Assembly (NCBI RefSeq): GCF_026212465.1
Contig: NC_080058.1
Span: forward strand, 21,022,200-21,086,199
Length of the DNA stretch: 64,000 bases
Direction: 5' to 3'
DNA from: Amaranthus tricolor
Taxonomy: Eukaryota > Streptophyta > Magnoliopsida > Caryophyllales > Amaranthaceae
Shown here: piece after piece, positions 1-49,414 of the stretch
Layout: the number at the start of each line of letters is the position of its first letter
Numbering within the stretch: position 1 is the stretch's first letter
Position numbers and translations under genes: made by a program
Notes under the pieces: generated by a model
Told to the model about the DNA's origin: nothing
The model's database searches: none
Seen by the model: the letters and a program-made list of their open reading frames with translations, nothing else

Positions 1-1339
1 TTGGTATATATTATTGTGTTGAAGTGGATAGAATTGAAAAGCATAGTTATATGCTAGAAATTACGTGTTAAGTTGCGATTTTATGCGTTTTTAAACGTTT
101 TTGTCAATTTCGCGCGTAAAGTAGCTCAAACTTGTTCTGTTATGCACGAAACATGGCACACAACACTATTTGGTATATATTATTGTGTTGAAGTGGTTAG
201 AATTTAAAATCATAGTCATATGCTAGAAATTAAAAGTTAAATTGCGATTTTATGCGTTTTGAACCATTATTGACACTAACATCTATTTTCTCTTAGTGCT
301 TTCAACAACCTTCTTCCGTTGAATGCGGCTACTACAAATGATCATGATAAAATCACGAAACAACCACAAATACATAGAAAATTCTAATCTACCAAACTGT
401 CGAGCAGCCTTCCCTTAGCTCAGCTTCTAGGAGTCCACGGGGATTGTTAGAATGGTTTTAGGACCTTGATAACTAGATCCAAGTACCAAGATTCCATTTC
501 CACTTTAGCCTAGGTCTTGGATGCATAGGTTTGGTCTTCACGTGTCGTGCAAGGTGGTCTGGTCACTAGTTTGCTGCTGTGTCGTGAGGTCTATATACAT
601 CCTTGTGTGGGTTCCTTTGGCATCTTCATTTTATACAACCACATTTGTATCAGATTTGCACGAAACTTGGCACACAACACTCTTTGGTATATATTATTGT
701 GTTGAGGAGGATAGAATTGAAAACCATAGTCATATGCTAGAAATTACGTGTTATGTTGCGATTTTATGCGTTTTTAACCGTTTTTGTTAATTTCGCGCGT
801 AAAGTAGCTCAAACTTGGTTTGTTATGCATGAAACTTGGCACACAACACAATTTGGTATATTATTGTGTTGAAGTGGTTAGAATTGAAAATCATAGTCAT
901 ATGCTAGAAATTAAAAGTTAAGTTGCAATTTTATGCGTTTTTAACCATTATTGACACTAACATCTATTTTCTCTTAGTGCTTTCAACAACCTTCTTCTGT
1001 TGAATGCGGCTACTACAAATGATCATGAAAAAAACACGAAACAACCACAAACATTTAGACAATTGTAATCCACCAAACAGTCGAGCAGCCTTCCTTTAGC
1101 TCAGCTTCTAGGAGTCCACGGCGATTGTTAGAATGGTGTTAGGACCTTGATAACTAGATCCAAGTAGCAAAAATCCATTTCCACTTTAGCCTAGGTCTTG
1201 GATGCATAGGTTTGGTCTACACGTGTCGTGCAAGGTAATCAGGTCACTAGTTTGCTGCTGTGTCGTGAGGTCTGTATGCAGCCTTGTCTGGGCTCCTTTG
1301 GTATCTTCATTTTATACAACCACATTTGTATCAGATTTG

Positions 1340-1640
1340 CACGAAACTTGGTGCACAACACTCTTTGGAATATATTATTGTGTTGAAGTGGATAGACTTG
1401 AAAAGCATAGTCATATGCTAGTAATTACGTGTTAAGTTGCGATTTTATGCGTTTTTAAACGTTTTTGTCAATTTCGCGCGTAAAGTAGCTCAAACTTGGT
1501 TTGTTATGCACGAAACTTGGCACACAACACTATTTGGTATATATTATTGTGTTGAAGTGGTTAGAATTGAAAATCATAGTCATATGCTAGAAATTAAAAG
1601 TTAAGTTGCGATTTTATGCATTATTAACCATTATTGACAC
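1340..1640 (+). repeat. representative pair of ~169-bp subrepeats inside one satellite monomer
   Basis: Two copies of the same unit start at about 1340 and 1509. Shared blocks include CACGAAACTTGG, TTTGGTATATATTATTGTG, CATAGTCATATGCTAGAAATT and AAGTTGCGATTTTATGCG. The same unit occurs, without the rest of the monomer, in the ORF2 intron of the forward CACTA copy (40,720-42,070) and, reverse-complemented, in the matching intron of the reverse copy (57,430-57,956 and 59,480-59,890). The subrepeat is therefore older than the 683-bp satellite and native to the transposon intron. Confidence 0.9.
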
Positions 1641-1660
1641 TAACATCTATTTTCTCTTAG

Positions 1661-1699
1661 TGCTTTCAACAACCTTTTTCCGTTGAATGCGGCTACTAC
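1661..1699 (+). pseudogene. Ulp1 catalytic-Cys exon start, present in each satellite monomer (one example)
   Basis: After the splice-acceptor-like TTTTCTCTTAG, the frame reads CFQQPFSVECGYY and then leaves the homology. Transposon copies in this window continue here into CGYYALKFMDDI or [13 protein letters not shown], which is the Cys box of plant Ulp1/C48 proteases. In the monomer the exon is cut after the two tyrosines and followed by AAATGATCATG, which closes the frame. Other monomers have CFQQPSSVECGYY, or changes such as Glu to Lys before the Cys. Nothing suggests that the protein fragment is maintained. It is a fossil that marks where the satellite came from. Confidence 0.88.
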
Positions 1700-1884
1700 A
1701 TATGATCATGAAAAAAACACGAAACAACCACAAACATTTAGACAATTGTAATCTACCAAACTGTCGAGCAGCCTTCCTTTAGCTCAGCTTCTAGGAGTCC
1801 ACGGGGATTGTTAGAATGGTGTTAGGACCTTGATAACTAGATCCAAGTACCAAGAATGCATTTCCACTTTAGCCTAGGTCTTGG

Positions 1885-4800
1885 ATGCATAGTTTTGGTC
1901 TACACGTGTCGTGCAAGCTGGTCTGGTCACTAGTTTGCTGCTATGTCGTGAGGTCTGTATGCAGCCTTGTCTTGGCTCCTTTGGTATCTTCATTTTATAC
2001 AACCACATTTGTATCAGATTTGCACGAAACTTGGCACACAACACTCTTTGGAATATATTATTGTGTTGAAGTGGATAGAATTGAAAAGCATAGTCATATG
2101 CTAGTAATTACGTGTTAAGTTGCGATTTTATGCGTTTTTAAACGTTTTTGTCAATTTCGCGCGTAAAGTAGCTCAAACTTCGTTTGTTATGCACGCAACT
2201 TAGCACACAACACTATTTGGTATATATTATTGTGTTGAAGTGGTTAGAATTGAAAATCATAGTCATATGCTAGAAATTAAAAGTTAAGTTGCGATTTTAT
2301 GCATTATTAACCATTATTGACACTAACATCTATTTTCTCTTAGTGCTTTCAACAACCTTCTTCCGTTGAATGCGGCTACTACAAATTGTCATGAAAAAAA
2401 CACGAAACAACCACAAACATTTAGACAATTCTAATCTACCAAACTGTCGAGTAGCCTTCCTTTAGCTCAGCTTCTAGGAGTCCACGGGGATTGTTAGAAT
2501 GGTTTTAGGACCTTGATAGCTAGATCCAAGTACCAAGATTCCATTTCCACTTTAGCTTAGGTCCTGTATGCATAGGTTTGGTCTACACGTGTCGTGCAAG
2601 GTGGTCTGGTCACTAGTTTGCTGCTATGTCGTGAGGTCTGTATGTAGCCTTGTCTGGGCTCCTTTGGTATCTTCATTTTATACAACCACATTTGTATCAG
2701 ATTTGCACGAAACATGGCACACAACACTCTTTGGAATATATTATTGCGTTGAAGTGGATAGAATTGAAAAGCATAGTCATATGCTAGAAATTACGTGTTA
2801 AGTTGCGATTTTATGCGTTTTTAAACGTTTTTGTCAATTTCGCTCGTAAAGTAGCTCAAACTTGGTTTGTTATGCACGAAACTTGGCACACAACACTATT
2901 TGGTATATATTATTGTGTTGAAGTGGTTAGAATTGAAAATCATAGTCATATGCTAGAAATTAAAAGTTAAGTTGCGATTTTATGCATTATTAACCATTAT
3001 TGACACTAACATCTATTTTCTCTTAGTGCTTTCAACAACCTTCTTCCGTTAAATGCGGCTACTACAAATGATCATGAAAAAAACACGAAACAACCACAAA
3101 CATTTAGACAATTCTAATCTACCAAACTGTCGAGTAGCCTTCCTTTAGCTCAGCTTCTAGGAGTCCACGGGGATTGTTAGAATGGTTTTAGGACCTTGAT
3201 AGCTAGATCCAAGTACCAAGATTCCATTTCCACTTTAGCCTAGGTCCTGGATGCATAGGTTTGGTCTCCACGTGTCGTGCTAGGTGGTTTGGTCACTAGT
3301 TTGCTGCTGTGTCGTGAGGTCTGTATGCACCCTTGTGTGGGCTCCCTTGGTATCTTCATTTTATAGAACCACATTAGTATCAAATTTGCACGAAACTTGG
3401 CACACAACACTCTTTGGTATATATTATTGTGTTGAAGTGGATAGAATTGAAAATCATAGTCATATGCTAGAAATTACGTGTTAAGTTGCGATTTTATGCG
3501 TTTTTAAACGTTTTTGTCAATTTTGCGCGTAAAGTAGCTCAAACTTGGTTTGTTATGCACGAAACTTGGCACACAACATTATTTGGTATATATTCTTGTG
3601 TTGAAGTGGTTAGAATTGAAAATCATAGTCATATGCTAGAAATTAAAAGTTAAGTTGCGCTTTTATGCGTTTTTAACCATTATTGACACTAACATCTATT
3701 TTCTCTTAGTGCTTTCAACAACCTTCTTCCGTTGAATGCGGCTACTACAAATGATCATGAAAAAATCACGAAACAACCACAAACACTTAGACAATTCTAA
3801 TCTACCAAACTGTCGAGCAGTCTTCCTTTAGCTCAACTTCTAGGAGTCCACGAGGATTGTTAGAATGGTTTTAGGACCTTGATAGCTAGATCGAAGTACC
3901 AAGATTCCATTTCCACTTTAGCCTAGGTCCTGGATGCATAGGATTTGTCTTCACGTGTCGTGCAAGGTGATCTAGTCACTAGTTTGCTGCTGTGTCGTGA
4001 GGTCTGTATGCAGCCTTGTGTGGGCTCCTTTGGTATCTTCATTTTATACAACCACATTTGTATCAGATTTGCACGAAACTTTGTGCACAACACTCTTTGG
4101 AATATATTATTGTGTTGAAGTGGATAGACTTGAAAAGCATAGTCATATGCTAGTAATTACGTGTTAAGTTGCGATTTTATGCGTTTTTAAACGTTTTTGT
4201 CATTTTCGCGCGTAAAGTAGCTCAAACTTGGTTTGTTATGCACGAAACTTGGCACACAACACTATTTGGTATATATTATTGTGTTGAAGTGGTTAGAATT
4301 GAAAATCATAGTCATATGCTAGAAATTAAAAGTTAAGTTGCGATTTTATGCATTATTAACCATTATTGACACTAACATCTATTTTCTCTTAGTGCTTTCA
4401 ACAACCTTCTTCCGTTGAATGCGGCTACTACATATGATCATGAAAAAAACACGAAACAACCACAAACATTTAGACAATTGTAATCTACCAAACTGTCGAG
4501 CAGCCTTCCTTTAGCTCAGCTTCTAGGAGTCCACGGGGATTGTTAGAATGGTGTTAGGACCTTGATAACTAGATCCAAGTACCAAGAATGCATTTCCACT
4601 TTAGCCTAGGTCTTGGATGCATAGTTTTGGTCTACACGTGTCGTGCAAGCTGGTCTGGTCACTAGTTTGCTGCTATGTCGTGAGGTCTGTATGCAGCCTT
4701 GTCTTGGCTCCTTTGGTATCTTCATTTTATACAACCACATTTGTATCAGATTTGCACGAAACTTGGCACACAACACTCTTTGGAATATATTATTGTGTTG

Positions 4801-7800
4801 AAGTGGATAGAATTGAAAAGCATAGTCATATGCTAGTAATTACGTGTTAAGTTGCGATTTTATGCGTTTTTAAACGTTTTTGTCAATTTCACGCGTAAAG
4901 TAGCTCAAACTTCGTTTGTTATGCACGCAACTTAGCACACAACACTATTTGGTATATATTATTGTGTTGAAGTGGTTAGAATTGAAAATCATAGTCATAT
5001 GCTAGAAATTAAAAGTTAAGTTGCGATTTTATGCATTATTAACCATTATTGACACTAACATCTATTTTCTCTTAGTGCTTTCAACAACCTTCTTCCGTTG
5101 AATGCGGCTACTACAAATTATCATGAAAAAAACACGAAACAACCACAAACATTTAGACAATTCTAATCTACCAAACTGTCGAGTAGCCTTCCTTTAGCTC
5201 AGCTTCTAGGAGTCCACGGGGATTGTTAGAATGGTTTTAGGACCTTGATAGCTAGATCCAAGTACCAAGATTCCATTTCCACTTTAGCTTAGGTCCTGTA
5301 TGCATAGGTTTGGTCTACACGTGTCGTGCAAGGTGGTCTGGTCACTAGTTTGCTGCTATGTCGTGAGGTCTGTATGCAGCCTTGTCTGGGCTCCTTTGGT
5401 ATCTTCATTTTATACAACCACATTTGTATCAGATTTGCACGAAACATGGCACACAACACTCTTTGGAATATATTATTGCGTTGAAGTGCATAGAATTGAA
5501 AAGCATAGTCATATGCTAGAAATTACGTGTTAAGTTGCGATTTTATGCGTTTTTAAACGTTTTTGTCAATTTCGCTCGTAAAGTAGCTCAAACTTGGTTT
5601 GTTATGCACGAAACTTGGCACACAGCACTATTTGGTATATATTATTGTGTTGAAGTGGTTAGAATTGAAAATCATAGTCATATGCTAGAAATTAAAAGTT
5701 AAGTTGCGATTTTATGCATTATTAACCATTATTGACACTAACATCTATTTTCTCTTAGTGCTTTCAACAACCTTCTTCCGTTAAATGCGGCTACTACAAA
5801 TGATCATGAAAAAAACACGAAACAACCACAAACATTTAGACAATTCTAATCTACCAAACTGTCGAGTAGACTTCCTTTAGCTCAGCTTCTAGGAGTCCAC
5901 GGGGATTGTTAGAATGGTTTTAGGACCTTGATAGCTAGATCCAAGTACCAAGATTCCATTTCCACTTTAGCCTAGGTCCTGGATGCATAGGTTTGGTCTC
6001 CACGTGTCGTGCTAGGTGGTTTGGTCACTAGTTTGCTGCTGTGTCGTGAGGTCTGTATGCACCCTTGTGTGGGCTCCCTTGGTATCTTCATTTTATAGAA
6101 CCACATTAGTATCAAATTTGCACGAAACTTGGCACACAACACTCTTTGGTATATATTATTGTGTTGAAGTGGATAGAATTGAAAATCATAGTCATATGCT
6201 AGAAATTACGTGTTAAGTTGCGATTTTATGCGTTTTTAAACGTTTTTGTCAATTTTGCGCGTAAAGTAGCTCAAACTTGGTTTGTTATGCACGAAACTTG
6301 GCACACAACATTATTTGGTATATATTCTTGTGTTGAAGTGGTTAGAATTGAAAATCATAGTCATATGCTAGAAATTAAAAGTTAAGTTGCGCTTTTATGC
6401 GTTTTTAACCATTATTGACACTAACATCTATTTTCTCTTAGTGCTTTCAACAACCTTCTTCCGTTGAATGCGGCTACTACAAATGATCATGAAAAAATCA
6501 CGAAACAACCACAAACACTTAGACAATTCTAATCTACCAAACTGTCGAGCAGTCTTCCTTTAGCTCAACTTCTAGGAGTCCACGAGGATTGTTAGAATGG
6601 TTTTAGGACCTTGATAGCTAGATCGAAGTACCAAGATTCCATTTCCACTTTAGCCTAGGTCCTGGATGCATAGGATTTGTCTTCACGTGTCGTGCAAGGT
6701 GATCTAGTCACTAGTTTGCTGCTGTGTCGTGAGGTCTGTATGCAGCCTTGTGTGGGCTCCTTTGGTATCTTCATTTTATACAACCACATTTGTATCAGAT
6801 TTGCACGAAACTTGGTGCACAACACTCTTTGGAATATATTATTGTGTTGAAGTGGATAGACTTGAAAAGCATAGTCATATGCTAGTAATTACGTGTTAAG
6901 TTGCGATTTTATGCGTTTTTAAACGTTTTTCTCAATTTCGCGCGTAAAGTAGCTCAAACTTGGTTTGTTATGCACGAAACTTGGCACACAACACTATTTG
7001 GTATATATTATTGTGTTGAAGTGGTTAGAATTGAAAATCATAGTCATATGCTAGAAATTAAAAGTTAAGTTGCGATTTTATGCATTATTAACCATTATTG
7101 ACACTAACATCTATTTTCTCTTAGTGATTTCAACAACCTTCTTCCGTTGAATGCGGCTACTACAAATTATCATGAAAAAAACACGAAACAACCACAAACA
7201 TTTAGACAATTCTAATCTACCAAACTGTCGAGTAGCCTTCCTTTAGCTCAGCTTCTAGGAGTCCACGGGGATTGTTAGAATGGTGTTAGGACCTTGATAA
7301 CTAGATCCAAGTACCAAGAATGCATTTCCACTTTAGCCTAGGTCTTGGATGCATAGTTTTGGTCTACACGTGTCGTGCAAGCTGGTCTGGTCACTAGTTT
7401 GCTGCTATGTCGTGAGGTCTGTATGCAGCCTTGTCTTGGCTCCTTTGGTATCTTCATTTTATACAACCACATTTGTATCAGATTTGCACGAAACTTGGCA
7501 CACAACACTCTTTGGAATATATTATTGTGTTGAACTGGATAGAATTGAAAAGCATAGTCATATGCTAGTAATTACGTGTTAAGTTGCGATTTTATGTGTT
7601 TTTAAACGTTTTTGTCAATTTCGCGCGTAAAGTAGCTCAAACTTCGTTTGTTATGCACGCAACTTAGCACACAACACTATTTGGTATATATTATTGTGTT
7701 GAAGTGGTTAGAATTGAAAATCATAGTCATATGCTAGAAATTAAAAGTTAAGTTGCGATTTTATGCATTATTAACCATTATTGACACTAACATCTATTTT

Positions 7801-9397
7801 CTCTTAGTGCTTTCAACAACCTTCTTCCGTTGAATGCGGCTACTACAAATTATCATGAAAAAAACACGAAACAACCACAAACATTTAGACAATTCTAATC
7901 TACCAAACTGTCGAGTAGCCTTCCTTTAGCTCAGCTTCTAGGAGTCCACGGGGATTGTTAGAATGGTTTTAGGACCTTGATAGCTAGATCCAAGTACCAA
8001 GATTCCATTTCCACTTTAGCTTAGGTCCTGTATGCATAGGTTTGGTCTACACGTGTCGTGCAAGGTGGTCTGGTCACTAGTTTGCTGCTATGTCGTGAGG
8101 TCTGTATGCAGCCTTGTCTGGGCTCCTTTGGTATCTTCATTTTATACAACCACATTTGTATCAGATTTGCACGAAACATGGCACACAACACTCTTTGGAA
8201 TATATTATTGCGTTGAAGTGGATAGAATTGAAAAGCATAGTCATATGCTAGAAATTACGTGTTAAGTTGCGATTTTATGCGTTTTTAAACGTTTTTGTCA
8301 ATTTCGCTCGTAAAGTAGCTCAAACTTGGTTTGTTATGCACGAAACTTGGCACACAACACTATTTGGTATATATTATTGTGTTGAAGTGGTTAGAATTGA
8401 AAATCATAGTCATATGCTAGAAATTAAAAGTTAAGTTGCGATTTTATGCATTATTAACCATTATTGACACTAACATCTATTTTCTCTTAGTGCTTTCAAC
8501 AACCTTCTTCCGTTAAATGCGGCTACTACAAATGATCATGAAAAAAACACGAAACAACCACAAACATTTAGACAATTCTAATCTACCAAACTGTCGAGTA
8601 GCCTTCCTTTAGCTCAGCTTCTAGGAGTCCACGGGGATTGTTAGAATGGTTTTAGGACCTTGATAGCTAGATCCAAGTACCAAGATTCCATTTCCACTTT
8701 AGCCTAGGTCCTGGATGCATAGGTTTGGTCTCCACGTGTCGTGCTAGGTGGTTTGGTCACTAGTTTGTTGCTGTGTCGTGAGGTCTGTATGCACCCTTGT
8801 GTGGGCTCCCTTGGTATCTTCATTTTATAGAACCACATTAGTATCAAATTTGCACGAAACTTGGCACACAACACTCTTTGGTATATATTATTGTGTTGAA
8901 GTGGATAGAATTGAAAATCATAGTCATATGCTAGAAATTACGTGTTAAGTTGCGATTTTATGCGTTTTTAAACGTTTTTGTCAATTTTGCGCGTAAAGTA
9001 GCTCAAACTTGGTTTGTTATGCACGAAACTTGGCACACAACATTATTTGGTATATATTCTTGTGTTGAAGTGGTTAGAATTGAAAATCATAGTCATATGC
9101 TAGAAATTAAAAGTTAAGTTGCGCTTTTATGCGTTTTTAACCATTATTGACACTAACATCTATTTTCTCTTAGTGCTTTCAACAACCTTCTTCCGTTGTA
9201 TGCGGCTACTACAAATGATCATGAAAAAATCACGAAACAACCACAAACACTTAGACAATTCTAATCTACCAAACTGTCGAGCAGTCTTCCTTTAGCTCAA
9301 CTTCTAGGAGTCCACGAGGATTGTTAGAATGGTTTTAGGACCTTGATAGCTAGATCCAAGTACCAAGATTCCATTTCCACTTTAGCCTAGGTCTTGG
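1885..9397. repeat. tetrameric higher-order repeat A, period 2,732 bp
   Basis: Monomers four apart are nearly identical while neighbours differ. The diagnostic monomer at 1885 (GCATAGTTTTGG, GCAAGCTGGTC) recurs at 4617 and 7349. The monomer at 3251, with a mutated first ATG context and TTTTATAGAACC, recurs at 5983 and 8715. The spacing is 2,732 bp, which is 4 x 683. About 2.75 copies are present before the pattern changes near 9,398. Confidence 0.88.
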
Positions 9398-12300
9398 ATG
9401 CATAGGTTTTCTCTTCACGTGTCGTGCAAGGTGGTCTGGTCACTAGTATGCTGCTGTGTCGTGAGGTCTGTATGCAGCCTTATGTGGGCTCCTTTGGTAT
9501 CTTCATTTTATACAACCACATTTGTATCAGATTTGCACGAAACTTGGCACACAACACTCTTTGGTATATATTATTGTGTTGAAATGGATAGAGTTGAAAA
9601 GCATAGTCATATGCTAGAAATTACGTGTTAAGTTGCGATTTTATGCGTTTTTAAACTTTTTTGTTAATTTCGCGCGTAAAGTAGCTCAAACTTGGGTTGT
9701 TATGCACGAAACTTGGCACACAACACTATTTGGTATATATTATTATGTTGAATTGGTTAGAATTGGAAATCATAGTCATATGCTAGAAATTAAAAGTTAA
9801 GTTGTGATTTTAGTCGTTATTAACCATTATTGACACTAACATCTATTTTCTCTTAGTGCTTTCAACAACCTTCTTCCGTTGAATGCGGCTACTACAAATG
9901 ATCATGAAAAAAACACGAAACAACCACAAGCATTTAGAGAATTGTAATCTACCAAACTGTCGAGCAGCCTTCCTTTAGCTCAGCTTCTAGGAGTCCACGG
10001 GGATTGTTAGAATGGTTTTAGGACCTTGATAGCTAGATCCAAGTACCAAGATTCCATTTCCACTTTAGCCTAGGTCTTGGATGTATAGGTTTGGTCTTCA
10101 CGTGTCGTGCAAGGTGGTCTGGTCACTAGTTTGCTGCTGTGTCGTGAGGTCTGTATGCAGCCTTGTCTGGGCTCCTTTGGTATCTTCATTTTATACAACC
10201 ACATTTGTATCAGATTTGCACGAAACTTGGCACACAACACTCTTTGGAATATATTATTGTGTTGAACTGCATAGATTTGAAAAGCATAGTCATATGCTAG
10301 AAATTACGTGTTAAGTTGCGATTTTATGCATTTTTAAACGTTTTTGTCAATTTCGCGCGTAAAGTAGCTCAAACTTGGTTTGTTATGCACGAAACTTGGC
10401 ACACAACACTATTTGGTATATATTATTGTGTTGAAGTGGTTAGAAATGAAAATCATAGTCATATGCTAGAAATTAAAAGTTAAGTTGCGATTTTATGCGT
10501 TTTTAGCCATTATTGACACTAACATCTATTTTCTCTTAGTACTTTCAACAACCTTCTTCCGTTGAATGCGGCTACTACAAATGATCATGAAAAAATAACG
10601 AAACAACCACAAACACTTAGAAAATTCTAATCTAGCAAACTGTCGAGCAGCCTTCTTTTAGCTCAGCTTCTAGGAGTCCACCGGGATTGTTAGAATGGTT
10701 TTAGGACCTTGATAGCTAGATCCAAGTACCAAGATTCCATTTCCACTTTAGCCTAGGTTATGGATGCATAGGTTTGGTCTTCACGTGTCGTGCAAGGTGG
10801 TCTGGTCACTAGTTTGCTGCTGTGTCGTGAGGTCTGTATGCAGCCTTGTCTGGGCTCCTTTGGTATCTTCATTTTATACAACCACATTTGTATCAGATTT
10901 GCACGAAACTTGGCACACAACACTCTTTAGAATATATTATTGTGTTGAACTAGATGGATTTGAAAAGCATAGTCATATGCTAGAAATTACGTGTTAAGTT
11001 GCGATTTTATGCGTTTTTAAACGATTTTGTCAATTTCGCGCGTAAAGTAGCTACAACTTGGTTTGTTATGCACGAAACTTGGCACACAACACTATTTGGT
11101 ATATATTATTGTGTTGAAGTGGTTAGAATTGAAAATCATAGTCATATGCTAGAAATTAAAAGTTAAGTTGCGATTTTATGCGTTTTTAACCATTATTAAC
11201 ACTAACATCTATTTTCTCTTAGTGCTTTCAACAACCTTCATCCGTTGAATGCGGCTACTACAAATGATCATGAAAAAATCACGAAACAACCACAAACACT
11301 TAGAAAATTCTAATCTACCAAACTATCGAGCAACCTTCCTTTAGCTCAGCTTCTAGGAGTCCACCGGGATTGTTAGAATGGTTTTAGGACCTTGATAGCT
11401 AGATCGAAGTACCAAGATTCCATTTCCACTTTAGCCTAGGTCTTGGATGCATAGGTTTGGTCTTCACGTGTCGTGCAAGGTGGTCTGGTCACTAGTTTGC
11501 TGCTGTGTCGTGAGGTCTGTATGCAGCCTTGTCTAGGCTCCTTTGGTATCTTCATTTTATACAACCATATTTGTATCAGATTTGCACGAAACTTGGCACA
11601 CAACACTCTTTAGAATATATTATTGTGTTGAACTAGATAGATTTGAAAAGCATAGTCATATGCTAGAAATTACGTGTTAAGTTGCGATTTTATGCGTTTT
11701 TAAACGTTTTAGTCAATTTCGCGCGTAAAGTAGCTCAAACTTGGTTTGTTATGCACGAAACTTGGCACACAACACTATTTGGTATATATTATTGTGTTCA
11801 AGTGGTTAGAATTGAAAATCATAGTCATATGCTAGAAATTAAAAGTTAAGTTGCGATTTTATGCGTTTTTAACCATTATTGACACTAACATCTATTTTCT
11901 CTTAGTGCTTTCAACAACCTTCTTCTGTTGAATGCGGCTACTACAAATGATCATGAAAAAATCACGAAACAACCACAAACACTTAGACAATTCTAATCTA
12001 CCAAACTGTCGAGCAGTCTTCCTTTAGCTCAGCTTCTAGGAGTCCACGGGGATTGTTAGAATGGTTTTAGGACCTTGATAGCTAGATCCAAGTACCAAGA
12101 TTCCATTTCCACTTTAGCCTAGGTCTTGGATGCATAGGTTTTCTCTTCACGTGTCGTGCAAGGTGGTCTGGTCACTAGTATGCTGCAGTGTCGTGAGGTC
12201 TGTATGCAGCCTTATGTGGGCTCCTTTGGTATCTTCATTTTATACAACCACATTTGTATCAGATTTGCACGAAACTTGGCACACAACACTCTTTGGTATA

Positions 12301-14861: not shown

Positions 14862-15544
14862 ATGCATAGGTTTGGTCTTCACGTGTCGTGCAACGTGGTC
14901 TGGTCACTAGTTTGCTGCTGTGTCGTGAGGTCTGTATGCAGCCTTGTCTGGGCTCCTTTGGTATCTTCATTTTATACAACCACATTTGTATCAGATTTGC
15001 ACGAAACTTGGCACACAACACTCTTTGGTATATATTATTGTGTTGAAATGGATAGAGTTGAAAAGCATAGTCATATGCTAGAAATTACGTGTTAAGTTGC
15101 GATTTTATGCGTTTTTAAACGTTTTTGTCAATTTCGCGCGTAAAGTAGCTCAAACTTGGTTTGTTATGCACGAAACATGGCACACAACACTATTTGGTAC
15201 ATATTATTGTGTTGAAGTGGTTAGAATTGAAAATCATAGTCATATGCTAGAAATTAAAAGTTAAGTTGCGATTTTATGCGTTTTTAACCATTATTGACAC
15301 TAACATCTATTTTCTCTTAGTGCTTTCAACAACCTTCTTCCGTTGAATGCAGCTACTACAAATGATCATGAAAAAATCACGAAACAACCACAAACACTTA
15401 GACAATTCTAATCTACCAAATCGTAGAGCAGTCTTTCTTTAGCTCAGCTTCTAGGAGTCCACGGGGATTGTTAGAAAGGTTTTAGGACCTTGATAGCTAG
15501 ATCCAAGTACCAAGATTCCATTTCCACTTTAGCCTAGGTCCTGG

Positions 15545-16396
15545 ATGCATAGGTTTGGTCTTCACGTGTCGTGCTAGGTGGTCTAGTCACTAGTTTGCTG
15601 CAGTGTCGTGAGGTCTGTATGCAGCCTTGTGTGGGCTCCTTTGGTATCTTCATTTTATACAACCACATTTGTATCAGATTTGCACGAAACTTGGCACACA
15701 ACACTCTTTGCTATATATTATTATGTTGAAGTGGATAGAATTGAAAAGCATAGTCATATGCTAGAAATTACGTGTTAAGTTGCGATTTTATGCGTTTTTA
15801 AACGTTTTTGTCAATTTCACGCGTAAAGTAGTTCAAACTTTGTTTGTTATGCACGAAACTTGGAACACAACACTCTTTGGTATATATTATTGTGTTGAAA
15901 TGGATAGAGTTGAAAAGCATAGTCATATGCTAGAAATTACGTGTTAAGTTGCGATTTTATGCGTTTTTAAACGTTTTTGTCAATTTCGCGCGTAAAGTAG
16001 CTCAAACTTGGTTTGTTATGCACGAAACATGGCACACAACACTATTTGGTACATATTATTGTGTTGAAGTGGTTAGAATTGAAAATCATAGTCATATGCT
16101 AGAAATTAAAAGTTAAGTTGCGATTTTATGCGTTTTTAACCGTTTTTTACACTAACATCTATTTTCTCTTAGTGCTTTCAACAACCTTCTTCCGTTGAAT
16201 GCGGCTACTACATATGATCATGAAAAAATAACGAAACAACCACAAACACTTAGAAAATTCTAATCTACCAAACTGTCGAGCAGCCTTCTTTTAGCTCTGC
16301 TTCTAGGAGTCCACCGGGATTGTTAGAATGGTTTTAGGACCTTGATAGCTAGATCCAAGTACCAAGATTCCATTTCCACTTTAGCCTAGGTTATGG
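15545..16396. repeat. 852-bp variant monomer with three subrepeats
   Basis: The landmark interval is 852 bp here, 169 bp longer than normal. Three subrepeat starts are seen, near 15,687, 15,855 and 16,023, instead of two. The extra unit equals one subrepeat, as expected from unequal exchange between subrepeats within the array. Confidence 0.85.
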
Positions 16397-19300
16397 ATGC
16401 ATAGGTTTGGTCTTCACGTGTCGTGCAAGGTGGTCTGGTCACTAGTTTGCTGCTGTGTCGTGAGGTCTGTATACAGCCTTGTGTGGGCTCCTTTGGTATC
16501 TTCATTTTATACAACCACATTTGTATCAGATTTGCACGAAACTTGGCACACAACACTCTTTGGTATATATTATTGTGTTGAAGTGGATAGAATTGAAAAG
16601 AATAGTCATATGCTAGAAATTACGTGTTAAGTTGCGATTTTATGCGTTTTTAAACGTTTTTGTCAATTTCGCGCGTAAAGTAGCTCAAACTTGGTTTGTT
16701 ATTTACGAAACATGGCACACAACACTATTTGGTACATATTATTGTGTTGAAGTGGTTAGAATTGAAAATCATAGTCATATGCTAGAAATTAAAAGTTAAG
16801 TTGCGATTTTATGCGTTTTTAACCATTATTGACACTAACATCTATTTTCTCTTAGTGCTTTCAACAACCTTCTTCCGTTGAATGCGGCTACTACAAATGA
16901 TCATGAAAAAATCACGAAACAACCACAAACACTTAGGAAATTCTAATCTACCAAACTGTCGAGTAGCCTTCCTTTAGCTCAGCTTCTAGGAGTCCACCGG
17001 GATTGTTAGAATGGTTTTAGGACCTTGATAGCTAGATCCAAGTACCAAGATTCCATTTCCACTTTAGCCTAGGTCTTGGATGCATAGGTTTGGTCTTCAC
17101 GTGTCGTGCAAGGTGGTCTGGTCACTAGTTTGCTGCTGTGTCGTGAGGTCTGTATACAGCCTTGTGTGGGCTCCTTTGGTATCTTCATTTTATACAACCA
17201 CATTTGTATCAGATTTGCACGAAACTTGGCACACGACACTCTTTGGTATATATTATTGTGTTGAAATGGATAGAGTTGAAAAGCATAGTCATATGCTAGA
17301 AATTACGTGTTAAGTTGCGATTTAATGCGTTTTTAAACTTTTTTGTTAATTTCGCGCGTAAAGTAGCTCAAACTTGGTTTGTTATGCACGAAACTTGGCA
17401 CACAACACCATTTGGTATATATTATTGTGTTGAAGTGGTTTGAATTGAAAATCATAGTCATATGCTAGAAATTAAAAGTTATGTTGCGATTTTAAGCGTT
17501 ATTAACCATTATTGACACTAACATCTATTTTCTCTTAGTGCTTTCAACAACCTTCTTCCGTTGAATGCGGCTACTACAAATGATCATGAAAAAAACACTA
17601 AACTACCACAAACATGTAGACAATTGTAATCTACCAAACTGTCGAGCAGCCTTCCTTTAGCTCAGCTTCTAGGAGTCCACGGGGATTGTTAGAATGGTTT
17701 TAGGACCTTGATAGCTAGATCCAAGTACCAAGATTCCATTTCCACTTTAGCCTAGGTCTTGGATGCATAGGTTTGGTCTTCACGTGTCGTGCAAGGTGGT
17801 CTGGTCACTAGTTTGCTGCTTTGTCGTGAGGTTTGTATGCAGCTTTGTCTGGGCTCCTTTGGTATCTTCATTTTATACAACCACATTTGTATCAGATTTG
17901 CACGAAACTTGGCACACAACACTCTTTGGAATATATTATTGTGTTGAACTGGATAGATTTAAAAAGCATAATCATATGCTAGAAATTACATGTTAACTTG
18001 CGATTTTATGCGTTTTTAAACGTTTTTGTCAATTTCGCGCGTAAAGTAGCTCAAACTTGGTTTGTTATGCACGAAACATGGCACACAACACTATTTGGTA
18101 CATATTATTGTGTTGAAGTGGTTAGAATTGAAAATCATAGTCATATGCTAGAAATTAAAAGTTAAGTTGCGATTTTATGCGTTTTTAACCATTATTGACA
18201 CTAACATCTATTTTCTCTTAGTGCTTTCAACAACCTTCTTCCGTTGAATGCGGCTACTACAAATGATCATGAAAAAATCACGAAACAACCACAAACACTT
18301 AGAAAATTCTAATCTACCAAACTGTCGAGCAGCCTTCCTTTAGCTCAGCTTCTAGGAGTCCACCGGGATTGTTAGAATGGTTTTAGGACCTTGATAGCTA
18401 GATCCAAGTACCAAGATTCCATTTCCACTTTAGCCTAGGTCTTGCATGCATAGGTTTGGTCTTCACGTGTCGTGCAAGGTTGTCTGGTCACTAGTTTGCT
18501 GCTGTGTCGTGAGGTCTGTATGCAGCCTTGTGTGGGCTCCTTTGGTATCTTCATTTTATACAACCACATTTGTATCAGATTTGCACGAAACTTGGCACAC
18601 AACGCTCTTTGGAATATATTATTGTGTTGAACTGGATAGATTTGAAAAGCATAGTCATATGCTAGAAATTATGTGTTAAGTTGCGATTTTATGCGTTTTT
18701 AAACGATTTTGTCAATTTCGCGCGTAAAGTAGTTCAAACTTGGTTTGTTATGCACGAAACATGGTACACAACACTATTTGGCATATATCATTGTGTTGAA
18801 GTGGTTAGAATTGAAAATCATAGTCATATGCTAGAAATTAAAAGTTAAGTTGCTATTTTATGCGTTATTAACCATTATTGACACTAACATCTATTTTCTC
18901 TTAGTGCTTTCAACAACCATCTTCCGTTGAATGCGGCTACTACAAATGATCATGAAAAAATCACGAAACAACCACAAACACTTAGAAAATTCTAATCTAC
19001 CAAACTGTCGAGCAGCCTTCCTTTAGCTCAGCTTCTAGGAGTCCACCGGGATTGTTAGAATGGTTTTAGGACCTTGATAGCTAGATCCAAGTACCAAGAT
19101 TCCATTTCCACTTTAGCCTGGGTCTTGCATGCATAGGTTTGGTCTTCACGTGTCGTGCAAGGTTGTCTGGTCACTAGTTTGCTGCTGTGTCGTGAGGTCT
19201 GTATGCAGCCTTGTGTGGGCTCCTTTGGTATCTTCATTTTATACAACCACATTTGTATCAGATTTGCACGAAACTTGGCACACAACACTCTTTGGTATAT

Positions 19301-20494
19301 ATTATTGTGTTGAAATGGATAGAATTGAAAAGCATAGTCATATGCTAGAAATTACGTGTTAAGTTGCGATTTTATGCGTTTTTAAACTTTTTTGTTAATT
19401 ATGCGCGTAAAGTAGCTCAAACTTGGTTTGTTATGCACGAAACTTGGCACACAACACAATTTGGTATATATCATTGTGTTGAAGTGGTTAGAATTGAAAA
19501 TCATAGTCATATGCTAGAAATTAAAAGTTAAGTTGCAATTTTATGCGTTTTTAACCATTATTGACACTAACATCTATTTTCTCTTAGTGCTTTCAACAAC
19601 CTTCTTCCGTTGAATGCGGCTACTACAAATGATCATGAAAAAATCACAAAACAACCACAAACACTTAGAAAATTCTAATCTACCAAACTGTCGAGCAGCC
19701 TTCCTTTAGCTCAGCTTCTAGGAGTCCACCGGGATTGTTAGAATGGTTTTAGGACCTTGATAGCTAGATCCAAGTACCAAGATTGCATTTCCACTTTAGC
19801 CTGGGTCTTGCATGCATAGGTTTGGTCTTCACGTGTTGTGCAAGGTTGTCTGGTCACTAGTTTGCTGCTGTGTCGTGAGGTCTGTATGCAGCCTAGTGTG
19901 GGCTCCTTTGGTATCTTCATTTTATACAACCACATTTGTATCAGATTTGCACGAAACTTGGCACACAACACTCTTTGGTATATATTATTGTGTTGAAATG
20001 GATAGAATTGAAAAGCATAGTTATATGCTAGAAATTACGTGTTAAGTTGCGATTTTATGCGTTTTTAAACTTTTTTGTTAATTTTGCGCGTAAAGTAGCT
20101 CAAACTTGGTTTGTTATGCACGAAACTTGGCACACAACACTATTTTGTATATATTGTTGTGTTGAAGTGGTTAGAATTGAAAATCATAGTCATATGCTAG
20201 AAATTAAAAGTTAAGTTGCGATTTTAAGCGTTATTAACCATTATTGACACTAACATCTATTTTCTCTTAGTGCTTTCAACAACCTTCTTCCGTTGAATGC
20301 GGCTACTACAAATGATCATGAAAAAAACACGAAACAACCACAAACATTTAGACAATTGTAATCTACCAAACTGTCAAGCAGCCTTCCTTTAGCTCAGCTT
20401 CTAGGAGTCCACGGGGATTGTTAGAATGGTTTTAGCACCTTGATAGCTAGATCCAAGTACCAAGATTCCATTTCCACTTTAGCCTAGGTCTTGG

Positions 20495-23400
20495 ATGCAT
20501 AGGTTTTTTCTTCACGTGTCGTGCAAGGTGGTCTGGTCACTAGTTTGCTGCTGTGTCGTGAGGTCTGTATGCAGCCTTGTGTGGGCTCCTTTGGTATTTT
20601 CATTTTATACAACCACAATTGTATCAGATTTGCACGAAACTTGGCACACAACACTCTTTGGTATATATTATTGTGTTGAAGTGGATAGAATTGAAAAGCA
20701 TAGTCATATGCAAGAAATTACGAGTTAAGTTGCGATTTTATGCGTTTTTAAACGTTTTTGTCAATTTCGCGCGTAAAGTAGCTCAAACTTGGTTTGTTAT
20801 GCACGAAACTTGGCACACAACACTACTTGGTATATATTATTGTGTTGAAGTGGTTAGAATTGAAAATCATAGTCATATGCTAGAAATTAAAAGTTAAGTT
20901 GCGATTTTATGCGTTATTAACCATTATTGACACTAACATCTATTTTCTCTTAGTGCTTTCAACAACCTTCTTCCGTTGAATGCGGCTACTACAAATGATC
21001 ATGAAAAAAACACTAAACTACCACAAACATTTAGACAATTGTAATCTACCAAACTGTCGAGCAGCCTTCCTTTAGCTCAGTTTCTAGGAGTCCACGGGGA
21101 TTGTTAGAATGGTTTTAGGACCTTGATAGCTAGATCCAAGTACCAAGATTCCATTTCCACTTTAGCCTAGGTCTTGGATGCATAGGTTTTGTATTCACGT
21201 GTCGTGCAAGGTGGTCTGGTCACTAGTTTGCTGCTGTGTCGTGAGGTCTGTATGCAGCCTTGTCTGGGCTCCTTTGGTATCTTCATTTTATACAACCACA
21301 TTTGTATCAGATTTGCACGAAACTTGGCACACAACACTCTTTGGGATATATTATTGTGTTGAACTGGATAAATTTGAAAAGCATAGTCATATGCTAGAAA
21401 TTACGTGTTAAGTTGCGATTTTATGCGTTTTTAAACGATTTTGTCAATTTCGCGCGTAAAGTAGCTCAAACTTGGTTTGTTATGCACGAAACTTGGTACA
21501 CAACACTATTTGGTATATATCATTGTGTTGAAGTGGTTAGAATTGCAAATCATAGTCATATGCTAGAAATTAAAAGTTAAGTTGCTATTTTATGCGTTAT
21601 TAACCATTATTGATACTAACATCTATTTTCTCTCAGTGCTTTCAACAACCTTCTTCCGTTGAATGCGACTACTACAAATGATCATGAAAAAAACTCGAAA
21701 CAACCACAAACATTTAGACAATTCTAATCTACCAAACTGTCGAGCAACCTTCCTTTAGCTCAGCTTCTAGGAGTCCACGGGGATTGTTAGAATGGTTTTA
21801 GGACCTTGATAGCTAGATCCAAGTACCAAGATTCCATTTCCACTTTAGCCTAGGTCCTGGATGCATAATTTGGTCTTCACATGTCGTGCAAGGTGGTCTG
21901 GTCACTAGTTTGCTGCTGTGTCGTGAGGTCTGTATGCAGCCTTGTGTGGGCTCCTTTGGTATCTTCATTTTATACAACCACATTTGTATCAGATTTGCAC
22001 GAAACTTGGCACACAACACTCTTTGGTATATATTATTGTGTTGAAGTGGATAGAATTGAAAAGCATAGTCATATGCAAGAAATTACGAGTTAAGTTGCGA
22101 TTTTATGCGTTTTTAAACGTTTTTGTCAATTTCGCGCGTAAAGTAGCTCAAACTTGGTTTGTTATGCACGAAACTTGGCACACAACACTATTTGGTATAT
22201 ATTATTGTGTTGAAGTGGTTAGAATTGAAAATCATAGTCATATGCTAGAAATTAAAAGTTAAGTTGCGATTTTATGCGTTATTAACCATTATTGACACTA
22301 ACATCTATTTTCTCTTAGTGCTTTCAACAACCTTCTTCTGTTGAATGCGGCTACTACAAATGATCATGAAAAAAACACTAAACTACCACAAACATTTAGA
22401 CAATTGTAATCTACCAAACTGTCGAGCAGCCTTCCTTTAGCTCAGCTTCTAGGAGTCCACGAGGATTGTTAGAATGGTTTTAGGACCTTGATAGCTAGAT
22501 CCAAGTACCAAGATTCCATTTTCACTTTAGCCTAAGTCTTGGATGCATAGGTTTGGTCTTCACGTGTCGTGCAAGGTGGTCTGGTCACTAGTTTGCTGCT
22601 GTGTCGTGAGGTCTGTATGCAGCCTTGTCTGGGCTCCATTGGTATCTTCATTTTATACAACCACATTTGTATCAGATTTGCACGAAACTTGGCACACAAC
22701 ACTCTTTGGAATATATTATTGTGTTGAACTGGATAGATTTGAAAAGCATAGTCATATGCTAGAATTTACGTGTTAAGTTGCGATTTTATGCGTTTGTAAA
22801 CGATTTTGTCAATTTCGCGCGTAAAATAGCTCAAACTTGGTTTGTTATGCACGAAACTTCGTACACAAGACTATTTGGTATATATCATTGTGTTGAAGTG
22901 GTTAGAATTGCCAATCATAGTCATATGCTAGAAATTAAAAGTTAAGTTGCTATTTTATGCGTTATTAACCATTATTGACACTAACATCTATTTTCTCTTA
23001 GTGCTTTCAACAACCTTCTTCCGTTGAATGCGGCTACTACAAATGATCATGAAAAAAACTCGAAACAACCACAAACATTTAGACAATTCTAATCTACCAA
23101 ACTGTCGAGCAACCTTCCTTTAGCTCAGCTTCTAGGAGTCCACGGGGATTGTTAGAATGGTTTTAGGACCTTGATAGCTAGATCCAAGTACAAAGATTCC
23201 ATTTCCACTTTAGCCTAGGTCCTGGATGCATAATTTGGTCTTCACATGTCGTGCAAGGTGGTCTGGTCACTAGTTTGCTGCTGTGTCGTGAGGTCTGTAT
23301 GCAGCCTTGTGTGGGCTCCTTTGGTATCTTCATTTTATACAACCACATTTGTATCAGATTTGCACGAAACTTGGCACACAACACTCTTTGGTATATATTA

Positions 23401-23906
23401 TTGTGTTGAAGTGGATAGAATTGAAAAGCATAGTCATATGCTAGAAATTACGTGTTAAGTTGCGATTTTATGCGTTTTTAAACGTTTTTGTCAATTTCGC
23501 GCGTAAAGTAGCTCAAACTTGGTTTGTTATGCACGAAACTTGGCACACAACAATATTTGATATATATTATTGTGTTGAAGTGGTTAGAATTTAAAATCAT
23601 AGTCATATGCTAGAAATTAAAAGTTAAGTTGCTATTTTATGCGTTATTAACCATTATTGACACTAACATCTATTTTTTCTTAGTGCTTTCAACAACCTTC
23701 TTCCGTGGAATGCGACTACTACAAATGATCATGAAAAAATCACGAAACAACCAAAACACTTAGACAATTCTAATCTACCAAACTGTCGAGCAGCCTTCCT
23801 TTAGCTCAGCTTCTAGGAGTCCACGAGGATTGTTAGAATGGTTTTAGGACCTTGATAGCTAGATCCAAGTACCAAGATTCCATTTCCACTTTAGCCTAGG
23901 TCCTGG
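20495..23906. repeat. dimeric higher-order repeat, period about 1,365 bp
   Basis: Monomers at 20,495, 21,861 and 23,226 resemble each other (the latter two share GGATGCATAATTTGG), and 21,178 resembles 22,543 (GAACTGGATAAATTTG versus GAACTGGATAGATTTG). The spacing is about 1,365 bp, two monomers. This block shows a different local homogenisation unit from the tetramers further left. Confidence 0.75.
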
Positions 23907-24871
23907 ATGCATAGTTTTGGTCTTCACATGTCGTGCAAGGTGGTCTGGTCACTAGTTTGCTGCTGTGTCGTGAGGTGTCTATGCAGCCTTGTGTGGGCTC
24001 CTTTGGTATCTTCATTTTATACATCCACATTTGTATCAGATTTGCACGAAACTTGGCACACAACACTCTTTGGTATATATTATTGTGTTGAAGTGGATAG
24101 AATTGAAAAGCATAGTCATATGCTAGAAATTACGTGTTAAGTTGCGATTTTATGCGTTTTTAAACGTTTTTGTCAATTTCGCGCGTAAAGTAGCTCAAAC
24201 TTGGTTTGTTATGCACGAAACTTGGCACACAACACTATTTGGTATATATTATTGTGTTGAAGTGGTTTGAATTGAACATCATAGTCATATACTAGAAATT
24301 AAAAGTTCAGTTTCGTTTTTATGCGTTTTTAACCATTTTTGACACTAACATCTATTTTCTGTTAGTGCTTTCAACAACCTTCTTCCGTTGAATGCGGCTA
24401 CTACAAATGATCATGCAAAGAACACGAAACAACCACAAACACCTAGAAAATTCTAATTTAGCAAACTATCGAGCAGCCCTCCTTCAGCTCAGCTTCTAGG
24501 AGTCCACGGGGATTGTTAGAATGGTTTTAGGACCTTGATAGGTAGATCCAAGTACCAAGATTCCATTTCCACTTTAGCCTAGGTCATGGATGCATAGGTT
24601 TGGTCTCCACTTGTCGTGCAAGGTGGGCTGGTCACTAGTTTGCTGCTGTGTCGTTAGGTTTGTATGCAGCCTTGTGTGGGCTCCTTTGGTATCTACATTT
24701 CATACAACCACATTTGTATCAGATTTGCACGAAACTTGGCACACAACACTCTTTAGTATATATTATTGTGTTGAAGTGGATAGAATTGAAAATCATAGTC
24801 AGATGCTCGAAATTACGTGTTAAGTTGCGATTTTATGCGTTTTTAAACGCTTTTGTCAATTTTTATATATT

Positions 24872-25100
24872 AATGCGGTTACTATGCGCTGGAGTTGAAA
24901 ATATTGATGCCGTAAGTATTTGTTAAATTCTTAAATAATTATTCTTAAAATCTAATTTTGATATATTAATCGTTTCTTTTTATATTATATTATAGGTTTT
25001 CAACGAAACTCCGAGAGAAACACGCCTTTTGAGAAGTGGAGAGATGTGCGAATTAAAAGTCAAGATTGCAGCGTATCTTGCTAATTTTTGTCCTTTATAA
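24872..25100 (+). pseudogene. Ulp1-type ORF2, last two exons (copy 1)
   Basis: The Cys box survives as CGYYAL (Cys codon 24,874-24,876) but an internal deletion joins it directly to the exon end at 24,911, losing most of the MDDI-to-VEN segment. The preceding codon is a stop. A GTAAGT donor follows at 24,912, the intron ends TTATAG at 24,995, and the last exon, 24,996-25,100, encodes a 34-residue tail beginning VFNETPRETRLLRSGEMCEL and ending FCPL. The tail matches the other copies closely. It is not functional. Confidence 0.82.
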
Positions 25101-25138
25101 ATTGTAATTAGTATATATTATTATTTAGGACTTTAATG

Positions 25139-25781
<643 letters not shown>

Positions 25782-25951
25782 CTGTATTTGTACGTACATA
25801 ATATTATATTATATATACGAGAGCGAGAGTTTATTATTACAAAGAGATTATTGTTGATTATTTGTGATTATCATTGGATTAATCATTTTTATTACATTGT
25901 ATTATTATTGGATTATTATAAGGAAAAAACGAAAAAAGAAAAAAAAATAGA

Positions 25952-26211
25952 AGTATTTGCTGCGGTTAGAGGCAATACCGCAGCAAATAATGCCCAATTA
26001 TTTGCTGCGGTTTTGCCTCTGACCGCAGCAAATACTCCTCCTTATTTGCTGCGGTTTTGTGTTGACTGGAGCAAATAATGCCCTTTTTTGCTGCGGTTTT
26101 TAACCACAACATTTAAAGTAGAACTTTTGCTGCTATGACTATTGCTAGGGGCCAAAACCGCAGCAAATAATGGCAAAAAAACCATAGCGAACGAGGTTTT
26201 TTTCACTAGTG
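25952..26211 (+). repeat. CACTA 3' subterminal repeats and terminal inverted repeat (copy 1)
   Basis: Alternating TTTGCTGCGGT and ACCGCAGCAAAT motifs form short inverted pairs, for example around 25,955-25,988 and 26,000-26,035. The region ends GAGGTTTTTTTCACTAGTG; its reverse complement starts with the canonical CACTA terminus. Subterminal repeats of this kind are where transposase binds in En/Spm-type elements. Confidence 0.88.
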
Positions 26212-29200: not shown

Positions 29201-29451
29201 TTCATTGCTAATTGTTCATTGTTCATTGTTCATTGTTCGTTGTTATTGTTCATTGATCATTGATTAATGATATTTGTTCATTGTTCATCATTCATTGTTC
29301 ATTGATAATTTATCCTTGTTTATAGTTCAACATTCATTGTTAATTGATCATTGATCCTTGTTCATTGTTTTTTGTTCATCATTCGTTGTTCAATGTTCCG
29401 TTGTTAATTGTTCATTATTCATTTATCAACTATCCTTCTTCATTGTTCATC
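26212..29451. repeat. degenerate TTCATTG heptamer array, segment 1
   Basis: The sequence can be read almost entirely as 7-bp words close to TTCATTG: TTCATTG, ATCATTG, ATCCTTG, TTCATCA, TTCATCG, TTCATTA. Because 7 and 3 share no factor, the perfect repeat gives the same seven-residue protein repeat (F-I-V-H-C-S-L) in all three + frames. That explains the many open frames there. No gene is seen. A ~400-bp pair of similar blocks is visible at about 28,850-29,340. Confidence 0.92.
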
Positions 29452-29670
29452 GATTTTACGGGTTTTTAACCGTTGTTGGCACTTTTGCGCATAAAGTAGC
29501 TCAAACTTGGTTTGTTTTGCACGCAATTTGGCACATAACACTATTTGGTTTTATTATTGTGTTGAAGTGGTTTGAATTGAAAATCATAGTCATATGCTAG
29601 AAATTACGTATTAAGTTGCGATTTTATGCGTTTTTATGCTTCTTTGGCACGAACATCTATTTTCTTTTAG

Positions 29671-42219: not shown

Positions 42220-42515
<296 letters not shown>

Positions 42516-49410: not shown

Positions 49411-49414
49411 AAAA

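Follow-up and report, generated by a model that had tools for sequence, protein, structure and literature searches.

A 683-bp tandem array inside a CACTA transposon of Amaranthus tricolor, probably amplified in place from the element's own protease gene

The first tandem copies of satellites are rarely caught arising, because their source is usually lost. The window analyzed here, a stretch of 64,000 nucleotides from Amaranthus tricolor, begins with a tandem array whose monomers carry a splice acceptor and codons of a transposon gene, which raises the question of how the array arose. Autocorrelation over bases 1-24800 gave a peak at 683 bp (0.87), and monomer alignment and a junction pattern search placed this composite array at 1-24862 on the plus strand, running on upstream to C12:21007508 on the contig that holds the window. 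The whole array (C12:21007508-21047061; 39,554 bp, or 39.6 kb) contained 57 exon copies, 36 of which lay within the window; a preliminary description had put the amplification at about 36 times or more.

The acceptor-bearing repeats in the window (36, from 286 to 24355) included 35 complete monomers with a mean pairwise identity of 95.5%; 34 of these were 681-683 bp long, and one measured 852 bp (15310-16161, plus strand), with three 169-bp units through an extra unit. The window monomers otherwise each contained two ~169-bp units, the second truncated at the acceptor. Every monomer had been said to hold two units, the acceptor and the codons; the units were present, but the acceptor TTTTCTCTTAG was exact in 33 of the 36 window repeats and CFQQPSSVECGYY in 24 of 36. 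The pairwise identity matrix further revealed a higher-order repeat in monomers 3-13 (1650-9162, plus strand), in which 2732 bp corresponds to four monomers and identity reaches 98.8-99.9% at offsets 4 and 8.

The array was located inside one CACTA element of 54,837 bp that retains both ends (copy 1), and CACTA sequence flanks it on both sides. The termini were CACTAGTGG...CACTAGTG, with the 3-bp target duplication ATT on both sides and the terminal inverted repeats CACTAGTGGAAAAAAA at C12:20993574 and TTTTTTTCACTAGTG ending at 21048410. Subterminal GCTGCGG-bearing repeats of ~44 bp were found at the 3' end, and the motif alone at the 5' end; pieces homologous to the coding region of another copy in the window (copy 2) lie on either side of a nested Copia element. 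The left flank of the array is CACTA coding sequence and the right flank is the remainder of the exon with the catalytic cysteine (Cys exon). At this right edge (24863-24911, plus strand), alignment with the exons of copies 2-4 showed TTATATATT, then what remains of the element's own Cys exon (AATGCGGTTACTATGCGCTG..GATGCC), in which an internal deletion has occurred, and then the 5' splice site GTAAGT. The rest of copy 1 (24912-26211, plus strand) consists of the last exon, a TA tract, the GCTGCGG subterminal repeats and the 3' terminus CACTAGTG (26204-26211), followed by ATT. A 7-bp-based satellite matching the published AmC9 adjoins copy 1 (26199-29452, no strand assigned), the match reaching a few bases into the element. 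The preliminary description had missed both that the array still sits in its parent element and that, by the junction search, it is confined to one locus. The 169-bp unit is the published satellite AmC4.

Tandem arrays are often misassembled, and the C3 array described below abuts a 100-N gap. An assembly artefact is nonetheless scarcely credible here, since the monomers differ by ~5% in ordered blocks, the borders are not array sequence and a clean target duplication bounds the element.

The Cys exon is part of a Peptidase_C48 domain (PF02902, E 5.1e-12 for the joined copy-4 exons), as the earlier assignment to the Cys box of C48 (Ulp1) proteases had proposed, and three A. tricolor proteins (P0001-P0003) showed 74-92% identity over 88-100% of the query. 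The catalytic residue roles are those that we take to apply to this protease. The order of units, acceptor and Cys exon was confirmed in CACTA copies 2, 3 and 4, although the copy 2 acceptor reads TTTTCGCTTAA and has lost its AG. Copy 3 (29451-30411, plus strand) is 5'-truncated and retains one 169-bp unit, the acceptor, the Cys exon, the last exon and the 3' end. Copy 2 (35767-43098, plus strand, 5' limit approximate) encodes Transposase_21 (PF02992, the tnp2 transposase; 36699-37238, plus strand, E 1.7e-61) and DUF4218 (37978-38376, plus strand, E 4.3e-27) ahead of its Cys exon (42100-42207, plus strand) and 3' end. Copy 4 (56567-63418, minus strand) carries the C48 gene exons, 169-bp units and Cys exon (57421 downwards), with its terminus at 56567. 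In both copies 2 and 4, unit blocks stand on both sides of an interruption: AmC4-type 169-bp units flank 319 bp (41268-41586) in the copy 2 intron (40721-42080, plus strand), a sequence distantly similar to the insert of the monomer, and ~1.5 kb in the copy 4 intron (57441-59888, minus strand).

The monomer had been explained as intron repeats, a truncated exon and a ~320-bp foreign insert that were assembled and then amplified. The insert does look foreign within the window, where it is only weakly similar to copies 2 and 4: its local score against the copy 2 interruption was 28.3 (shuffles, 11.5 +/- 1.7), its outer thirds were not significant alone in the same comparison (39 and 40 of 300 shuffles scored at least as high), and the copy 2 and copy 4 interruptions were themselves weakly alike (2/300 shuffles as high). 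Beyond the window, however, the insert proved to be a block of the same CACTA intron, 90-97% identical in 16/16 extracted intron interruptions, and the 107 bp to the left of the array matched the upstream part of this block in the same 16 copies (89-97% over 67-99 bases). Moreover, locus L002 on C13 holds the whole monomer contiguously: an 855-bp intron and exon stretch aligned with the 683-bp consensus at 660/683 positions (96.6%), the length difference amounting to one 169-bp unit plus one codon. On these two grounds the foreign-insert model of the preliminary description was rejected, and we consider it extremely improbable. The intron block also shows a distant resemblance, 67% over 95 bp, to LTR-like sequence around window positions 50774-50868.

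The L002 exon reads CFQQPSSSVECGYYALKYMDD, and three units precede its acceptor, as in the 852-bp monomer, whereas most monomers have two. CACTA coding sequence was not found upstream of L002 within the 3 kb examined. In unit trees of ~112 columns, without outgroup and with 35 of 62 inner branches below 80, array unit A grouped with the unit that follows the insert in L002 (97/75), and array unit B fell in a group with the L002 acceptor-proximal unit (98/79). L002 is a sister locus, not an ancestor. The L002 alignment, the intron copies and the unit tree agree with the proposed descent from a C48 Cys exon and upstream CACTA intron. The contiguity of the monomer in L002, together with the presence of the block within the intron copies, indicates tandem duplication of a single contiguous segment at its original site.

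The monomer junction showed a 5-bp microhomology, ACTAC. Of 24 loci with an identified block start, 16 had the form ACTAC/AAATG and 8 differed there, and the left flank of copy 1 reads ACTAG, not ACTAC; the microhomology is therefore read from sister loci. Sharing of 5 bp is expected in 0.65% and 0.84% of random breakpoint pairs (about 0.7-0.8%). A search for the junction pattern with up to 3 mismatches placed 57/57 matches in the C12 array, and the reversed control gave 0. The array is therefore at a single locus, and the name satellite DNA, given to it earlier, suits a long head-to-tail array but overstates a sequence that lacks the several genomic loci of a satellite.

Capture and transport of a pre-existing 683-bp satellite by the CACTA element would follow the published reading of a C. 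quinoa 171-bp array as captured by CACTA (PMC8978399, in the part covered). Such an origin is very improbable for the present array, since its junction was found at one locus only (up to 3 mismatches), its monomer contains codons from the gene and one of its splice sites, and on each side the array passes into element sequence at homologous positions. Capture of the introns from an existing satellite, which the preliminary description had named as grounds for abandoning its account, is very improbable for the 683-bp unit and is a live reading for the 169-bp unit (AmC4) only.

These results strongly suggest, with a probability of about 90%, that the array formed where it stands, by tandem amplification within a single CACTA transposon of A. 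tricolor. Just before its Cys exon, the C48 (Ulp1-like) gene of the element has an intron in which a ~370-bp block breaks up the AmC4-type 169-bp units. In the proposed course, the duplicated stretch would have run from ACTAC in the intron block through the units and the splice acceptor to ACTAC in the Cys exon (...GGCTACTAC), and its ends may have been joined head to tail through the 5-bp microhomology within one element. Unequal exchange could then have brought the unit to 57 copies, with local homogenization of the array; one 169-bp unit and one serine codon were presumably lost before or early in amplification. The array is carried by its element. The contiguity of the monomer at another locus, the borders inside the element, the shared junction bases and the single locus are direct observations, and the higher-order blocks among monomers support the amplification. 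The later deletion at the right border counts against this account.

Selective constraint on the array exon was also considered, and no firm case for it was obtained. Exon diversity over 39 bp was 0.026 (mean, 0.046), but 9.9% of 39-bp windows were equally low, and non-synonymous changes made up 8 of the 12 distinct ones in the exon (94 of 117 among possible changes). The dating of the exon piece that had been claimed earlier was not borne out.

The origin of the 169-bp unit is a separate matter. Comparison with the AmC4 probe gave 111 HSPs in the array at 82.6-89.9% identity, and the period is the same. AmC4 is described, in the passages covered, as an abundant pericentromeric satellite of A. 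cruentus and A. hypochondriacus by FISH, and AmT1 of A. tricolor as 91% identical to it (PMC11678860, PMC12651990). This published abundance suits a unit that was first pericentromeric AmC4/AmT1 and later entered the CACTA intron by capture, so that only the 683-bp step went from transposon to array. A pure 169-bp array filling C3:4648001-4668000 points the same way: it has 119 units, all on the minus strand, with steps between starts of at most 185 bp, no Cys exon on either strand and nothing that matches the coding or tail parts of CACTA. Its minus strand gave 10 loose matches to the terminus pattern (up to 2 mismatches); with unit starts never more than 184 bp apart, these were tentatively read as a variant of the unit. 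A further intron of copy 4 holds a single degenerate AmC4-type unit (63174-63270, minus strand; counterpart in copy 1 at C12:21006866-21006968), which is likewise in favor of capture. Acceptor-proximal units of six element copies, however, formed one clade (99/97), as old intron residents would, although 4/10 such units fell outside it. Units were present in the intron of 30/30 fetched CACTA copies on 14 contigs, and copies without units numbered 0/30, a count that favors unit-bearing copies because the query contained intron sequence. Taken together, capture of the 169-bp unit has close to an even chance.

The same 30 copies also accord with birth of the pericentromeric satellite from the CACTA intron, as do the grouping of AmC4 and 9/10 sampled pure-C3-array units with internal intron units (86/87) and a second composite array at C3, whose 1.9-kb unit also bears this Cys exon and which shows element pieces turning into long arrays. 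The tree has no outgroup and also fits capture or exchange, and we regard birth from the intron as possible but somewhat doubtful. Our equally tentative view is that AmC4/AmT1, the main pericentromeric satellite of Amaranthus, and the CACTA protease intron may be one population in continuing exchange, in which element units repeatedly seed composite arrays, such as the 683-bp array on C12 and the 1.9-kb one on C3, and the satellite itself began as, or is refilled from, the intron.

For the 683-bp array, the parent element, both borders, the junction and a locus with the contiguous source segment are all present in one assembled genome. In addition, a single intron connects a published pericentromeric satellite with a mobile element, which makes transposon seeding or feeding of such satellites in Amaranthaceae directly testable.

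Transposon-derived satellites are already known, including a CACTA-derived one in Chenopodium; a full-text search of openly licensed literature, in the passages covered, yielded no paper recognized as linking a CACTA C48 intron to a satellite. The comparisons that follow likewise hold for the covered parts of each source. The Chenopodium satellite CficCl-61-40 stems from a ~40-bp tnp2 transposase piece of deletion derivatives of the CACTA element Jozin and forms arrays in several species (Belyayev 2020, PMC7320549). By description it resembles the present case in plant family, in the passage of a CACTA coding piece into a satellite and in an array that begins beside a parent fragment; here, in contrast, the source is a 683-bp intron, acceptor and Cys-exon piece of a C48 gene, in an element with both ends and at one locus. 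The C. quinoa 171-bp array is likewise enclosed in a CACTA element with ends, at a position close to the 3' terminus, and its authors found no sign that the element made it (Belyayev 2022, PMC8978399), whereas the monomer described here is the element's own contiguous sequence; the 171-bp unit had no match in the window at E 1e-4. AmC4, AmH9 and AmT1 share family and period with the 169-bp units, and the passages covered tie them to no transposon, while here AmC4 fills a CACTA gene intron and makes up nearly half of the 683-bp composite (PMC11678860, PMC12651990). PisTR-A, from 3'UTR repeats of Ogre retrotransposons (PMC9659126, a review), similarly shows tandem repeats already within a transposon seeding a satellite, but from a retrotransposon untranslated region instead of a DNA transposon intron and exon. 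Finally, the rye arrays pSc200 and pSc250 were co-amplified with adjacent transposons, and short microhomology was discussed for the transposon/array joins (PMC4857426); there, unlike here, the transposons neighbor an existing satellite.

The array consisted of head-to-tail repeats with a period of 683 bp at window positions 1-24862 (autocorrelation 0.87), and each monomer comprised 169-bp units, a splice acceptor, an insert, and the Cys exon, an exon of the C48 (Ulp1-like) protease gene of a CACTA transposon. Thirty-six acceptor-bearing repeats lay in the window; the 35 complete monomers showed a mean pairwise identity of 95.5%, and one monomer measured 852 bp through an additional 169-bp unit. 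The acceptor TTTTCTCTTAG was exact in 33 of the 36 repeats and CFQQPSSVECGYY in 24. Monomers 3-13 formed a higher-order repeat of four monomers, with identities of 98.8-99.9% at offsets 4 and 8. With the upstream sequence of the same contig, the whole array reached back to C12:21007508 and measured 39,554 bp, with 57 exon copies and a mean pairwise identity of 95.2% among 56 monomers; near its upstream end, four monomer pairs spaced five monomers apart were more than 99% identical. No sign of an array function was found in the exon diversity, which was low yet ordinary for the exon length, or in the codon changes, 8 of 12 distinct ones being protein-altering.

The array is located within its parent CACTA element (copy 1). 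At the right edge, the last monomer ended inside a 169-bp unit, and past TTATATATT the element's own Cys exon, internally deleted, picked up again (AATGCGGTTACTATGCGCTG), followed by the splice site, the last exon, the subterminal repeats, and the terminus CACTAGTG (window 26204-26211). At the left edge, the insert of the first monomer ran on for approximately 100 more bases and then gave way to coding sequence belonging to this CACTA family, which matched copy 4, another element in the window, at 92%. The 5' terminus CACTAGTGGAAAAAA was located at C12:20993574, and ATT stood at both outer ends. Copy 1 was 54,837 bp long, of which the array made up 72%, and contained a nested Copia retrotransposon (C12:20995473-21005455; LTRs of 1.19 kb, 95.3% identical). 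Similar A. tricolor proteins to the window's transposon protein were P0001, P0003, and P0004.

Copy 1 adjoined a 7-bp-based satellite matching the published AmC9 (window 26199-29452), which also lay at window 30412-32254, 33496-33830, 47696-49293, 51105-56563, and 63419-64000. The centromere repeat proposed for A. tricolor, in the part of the source available, is 126 bp; since this is three times the 42 bp of AmC9, the two may be one family. Window 49290-51104 held an LTR-like stretch that contained two similar pieces of approximately 120 bp and distantly resembled the intron block. Long TA tracts lay inside several CACTA copies (window 25139-25817, 42220-42512, 56966-57085, and 60003-60200), in agreement with the AT-tandem richness reported, in the text available, for A. 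tricolor. Closely alike CACTA unit layouts at C10:14763131, 14792291, and 14821071, spaced approximately 29 kb apart, are perhaps a large segmental tandem duplication.

The source of the monomer was sought in the assembly (519,850,330 bases in 45 contigs; the window being C12:21022200-21086199), where the Cys-exon region gave 1501 first-look candidates, of which 40 were scored and listed and the best 30 of these 40 fetched. On the intron side, every one of the 30 had between 3 and 9 AmC4-type units (approximately 3.2 kb examined per locus), with a query that held 43 bases of intron, so that unit-free copies may have escaped. The intron block start AAATGATCATG was located in 24 of the 30 loci. 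The intron interruption was extracted from 16 of the 30, and the array insert matched it in all 16 (90-97% over 185-250 bases), which indicates that the insert is a block of the transposon's own intron; the 3' end of the array insert was approximately 70 bases longer than in these interruptions. A further locus, L002 on C13, found as a hit of the unit search, had the longer 3' form as in the array. Here a single contiguous stretch of 855 bp, from the block start to the exon's GGCTACTAC, agreed with the consensus monomer in 660 of its 683 positions (96.6%), the length differences being one 169-bp unit and one codon. Its exon read CFQQPSSSVECGYYALKYMDD, and the VEC reading was common to L002 and the array. 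Within the 3 kb examined, the Cys exon and tail were present and no upstream CACTA coding sequence was found. In the CACTA intron at L002 (C13:18024825-18027911), the block and units occurred twice without the exon, 913 bp apart, which may be the beginning of another array at a two-copy stage.

The monomer junction was GGCTACTAC|AAATGATC. Because ACTAC preceded the block (in 16 of the 24 loci with a block start, and in L002) and the exon read GGCTACTAC, 5 bp were shared at the junction, a degree of sharing expected for 0.84% of the breakpoint pairs drawn at random in L002 and, in a shuffle, for 0.65%. The left flank of copy 1 was ACTAG, one change from ACTAC. A junction search allowing up to 3 mismatches gave 57 matches, every one in the array, while neither the other strand nor the reversed control gave any, which indicates an array at a single locus rather than a dispersed satellite. 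We propose that a microhomology-mediated duplication would have come first, with unequal exchange following it.

A tree was built from 68 units (112 columns), and many of its forks were weak. In it, array unit A clustered with the L002 unit after the insert (97/75), and array unit B grouped with the L002 acceptor-proximal unit (98/79). One clade comprised the acceptor-proximal units of six copies and one unit of a composite array on C3 (99/97); 4 of 10 acceptor-proximal units fell outside it. Together with the contiguity at L002, the tree supports the transposon as the source of the arrayed 683-bp unit.

The 169-bp unit itself is the known satellite AmC4. The AmC4 FISH probe, described in the available text as 169 bp, 1.0% in A. 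cruentus, and pericentromeric (PMC11678860, PMC12651990), matched the array units at 82.6-89.9% and also the unit blocks in the window's CACTA copies 2, 3, and 4; for AmT1, its A. tricolor counterpart, an identity of 91% is reported in the same text (PMC11678860, PMC12651990). No tie to a transposon is stated in the available parts of these two papers (PMC11678860, PMC12651990). A pure 169-bp array filled the span C3:4648001-4668000 (minus strand, 119 units); the Cys exon was absent on either strand, and CACTA coding and tail sequences were unmatched. AmC4 clustered with internal intron units (86/87), as did 9 of the 10 units sampled from this pure array; the remaining one clustered with unit A of the 683-bp array. 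The intron may have captured the satellite, the satellite may have been born from the intron, or exchange may have run both ways. A degenerate AmC4-type unit was also seen in a second, upstream intron, at window 63174-63270 (minus strand) in copy 4 and C12:21006866-21006968 in copy 1.

Beyond a 100-N gap from the pure array, the C3 composite array started at C3:4668645, with a period of approximately 1.9 kb and the order 169-bp units, acceptor position, Cys exon, last exon, 3' terminus CACTAGTG, and units again (mean identity 99.1% among 15 monomers). The layout was alike in both stretches examined (4668645-4698000 and 4796001-4816000; loci L053-L056 and L058), and the array may span approximately 147 kb if continuous between them. 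The C12 and C3 arrays together indicate that the Cys-exon region of this CACTA family turned into a tandem array on at least two occasions, through different joins. The AG of the acceptor before the Cys exon was lost, reading AA, in copy 2 (window 42090-42099) and in one C3 composite unit inspected, and splicing should not be expected at these sites.

Satellites derived from transposons are well known (PMC9659126, in the part available), and two cases are described in the same plant family, in the available text: a satellite that derives from a CACTA element (PMC7320549) and one whose array lies within such an element (PMC8978399). As far as the literature search shows, four features are new: a monomer of intron, splice site, and exon; a parent element with the array borders; a locus keeping the source segment contiguous; and a tie between a CACTA intron and a published pericentromeric satellite.
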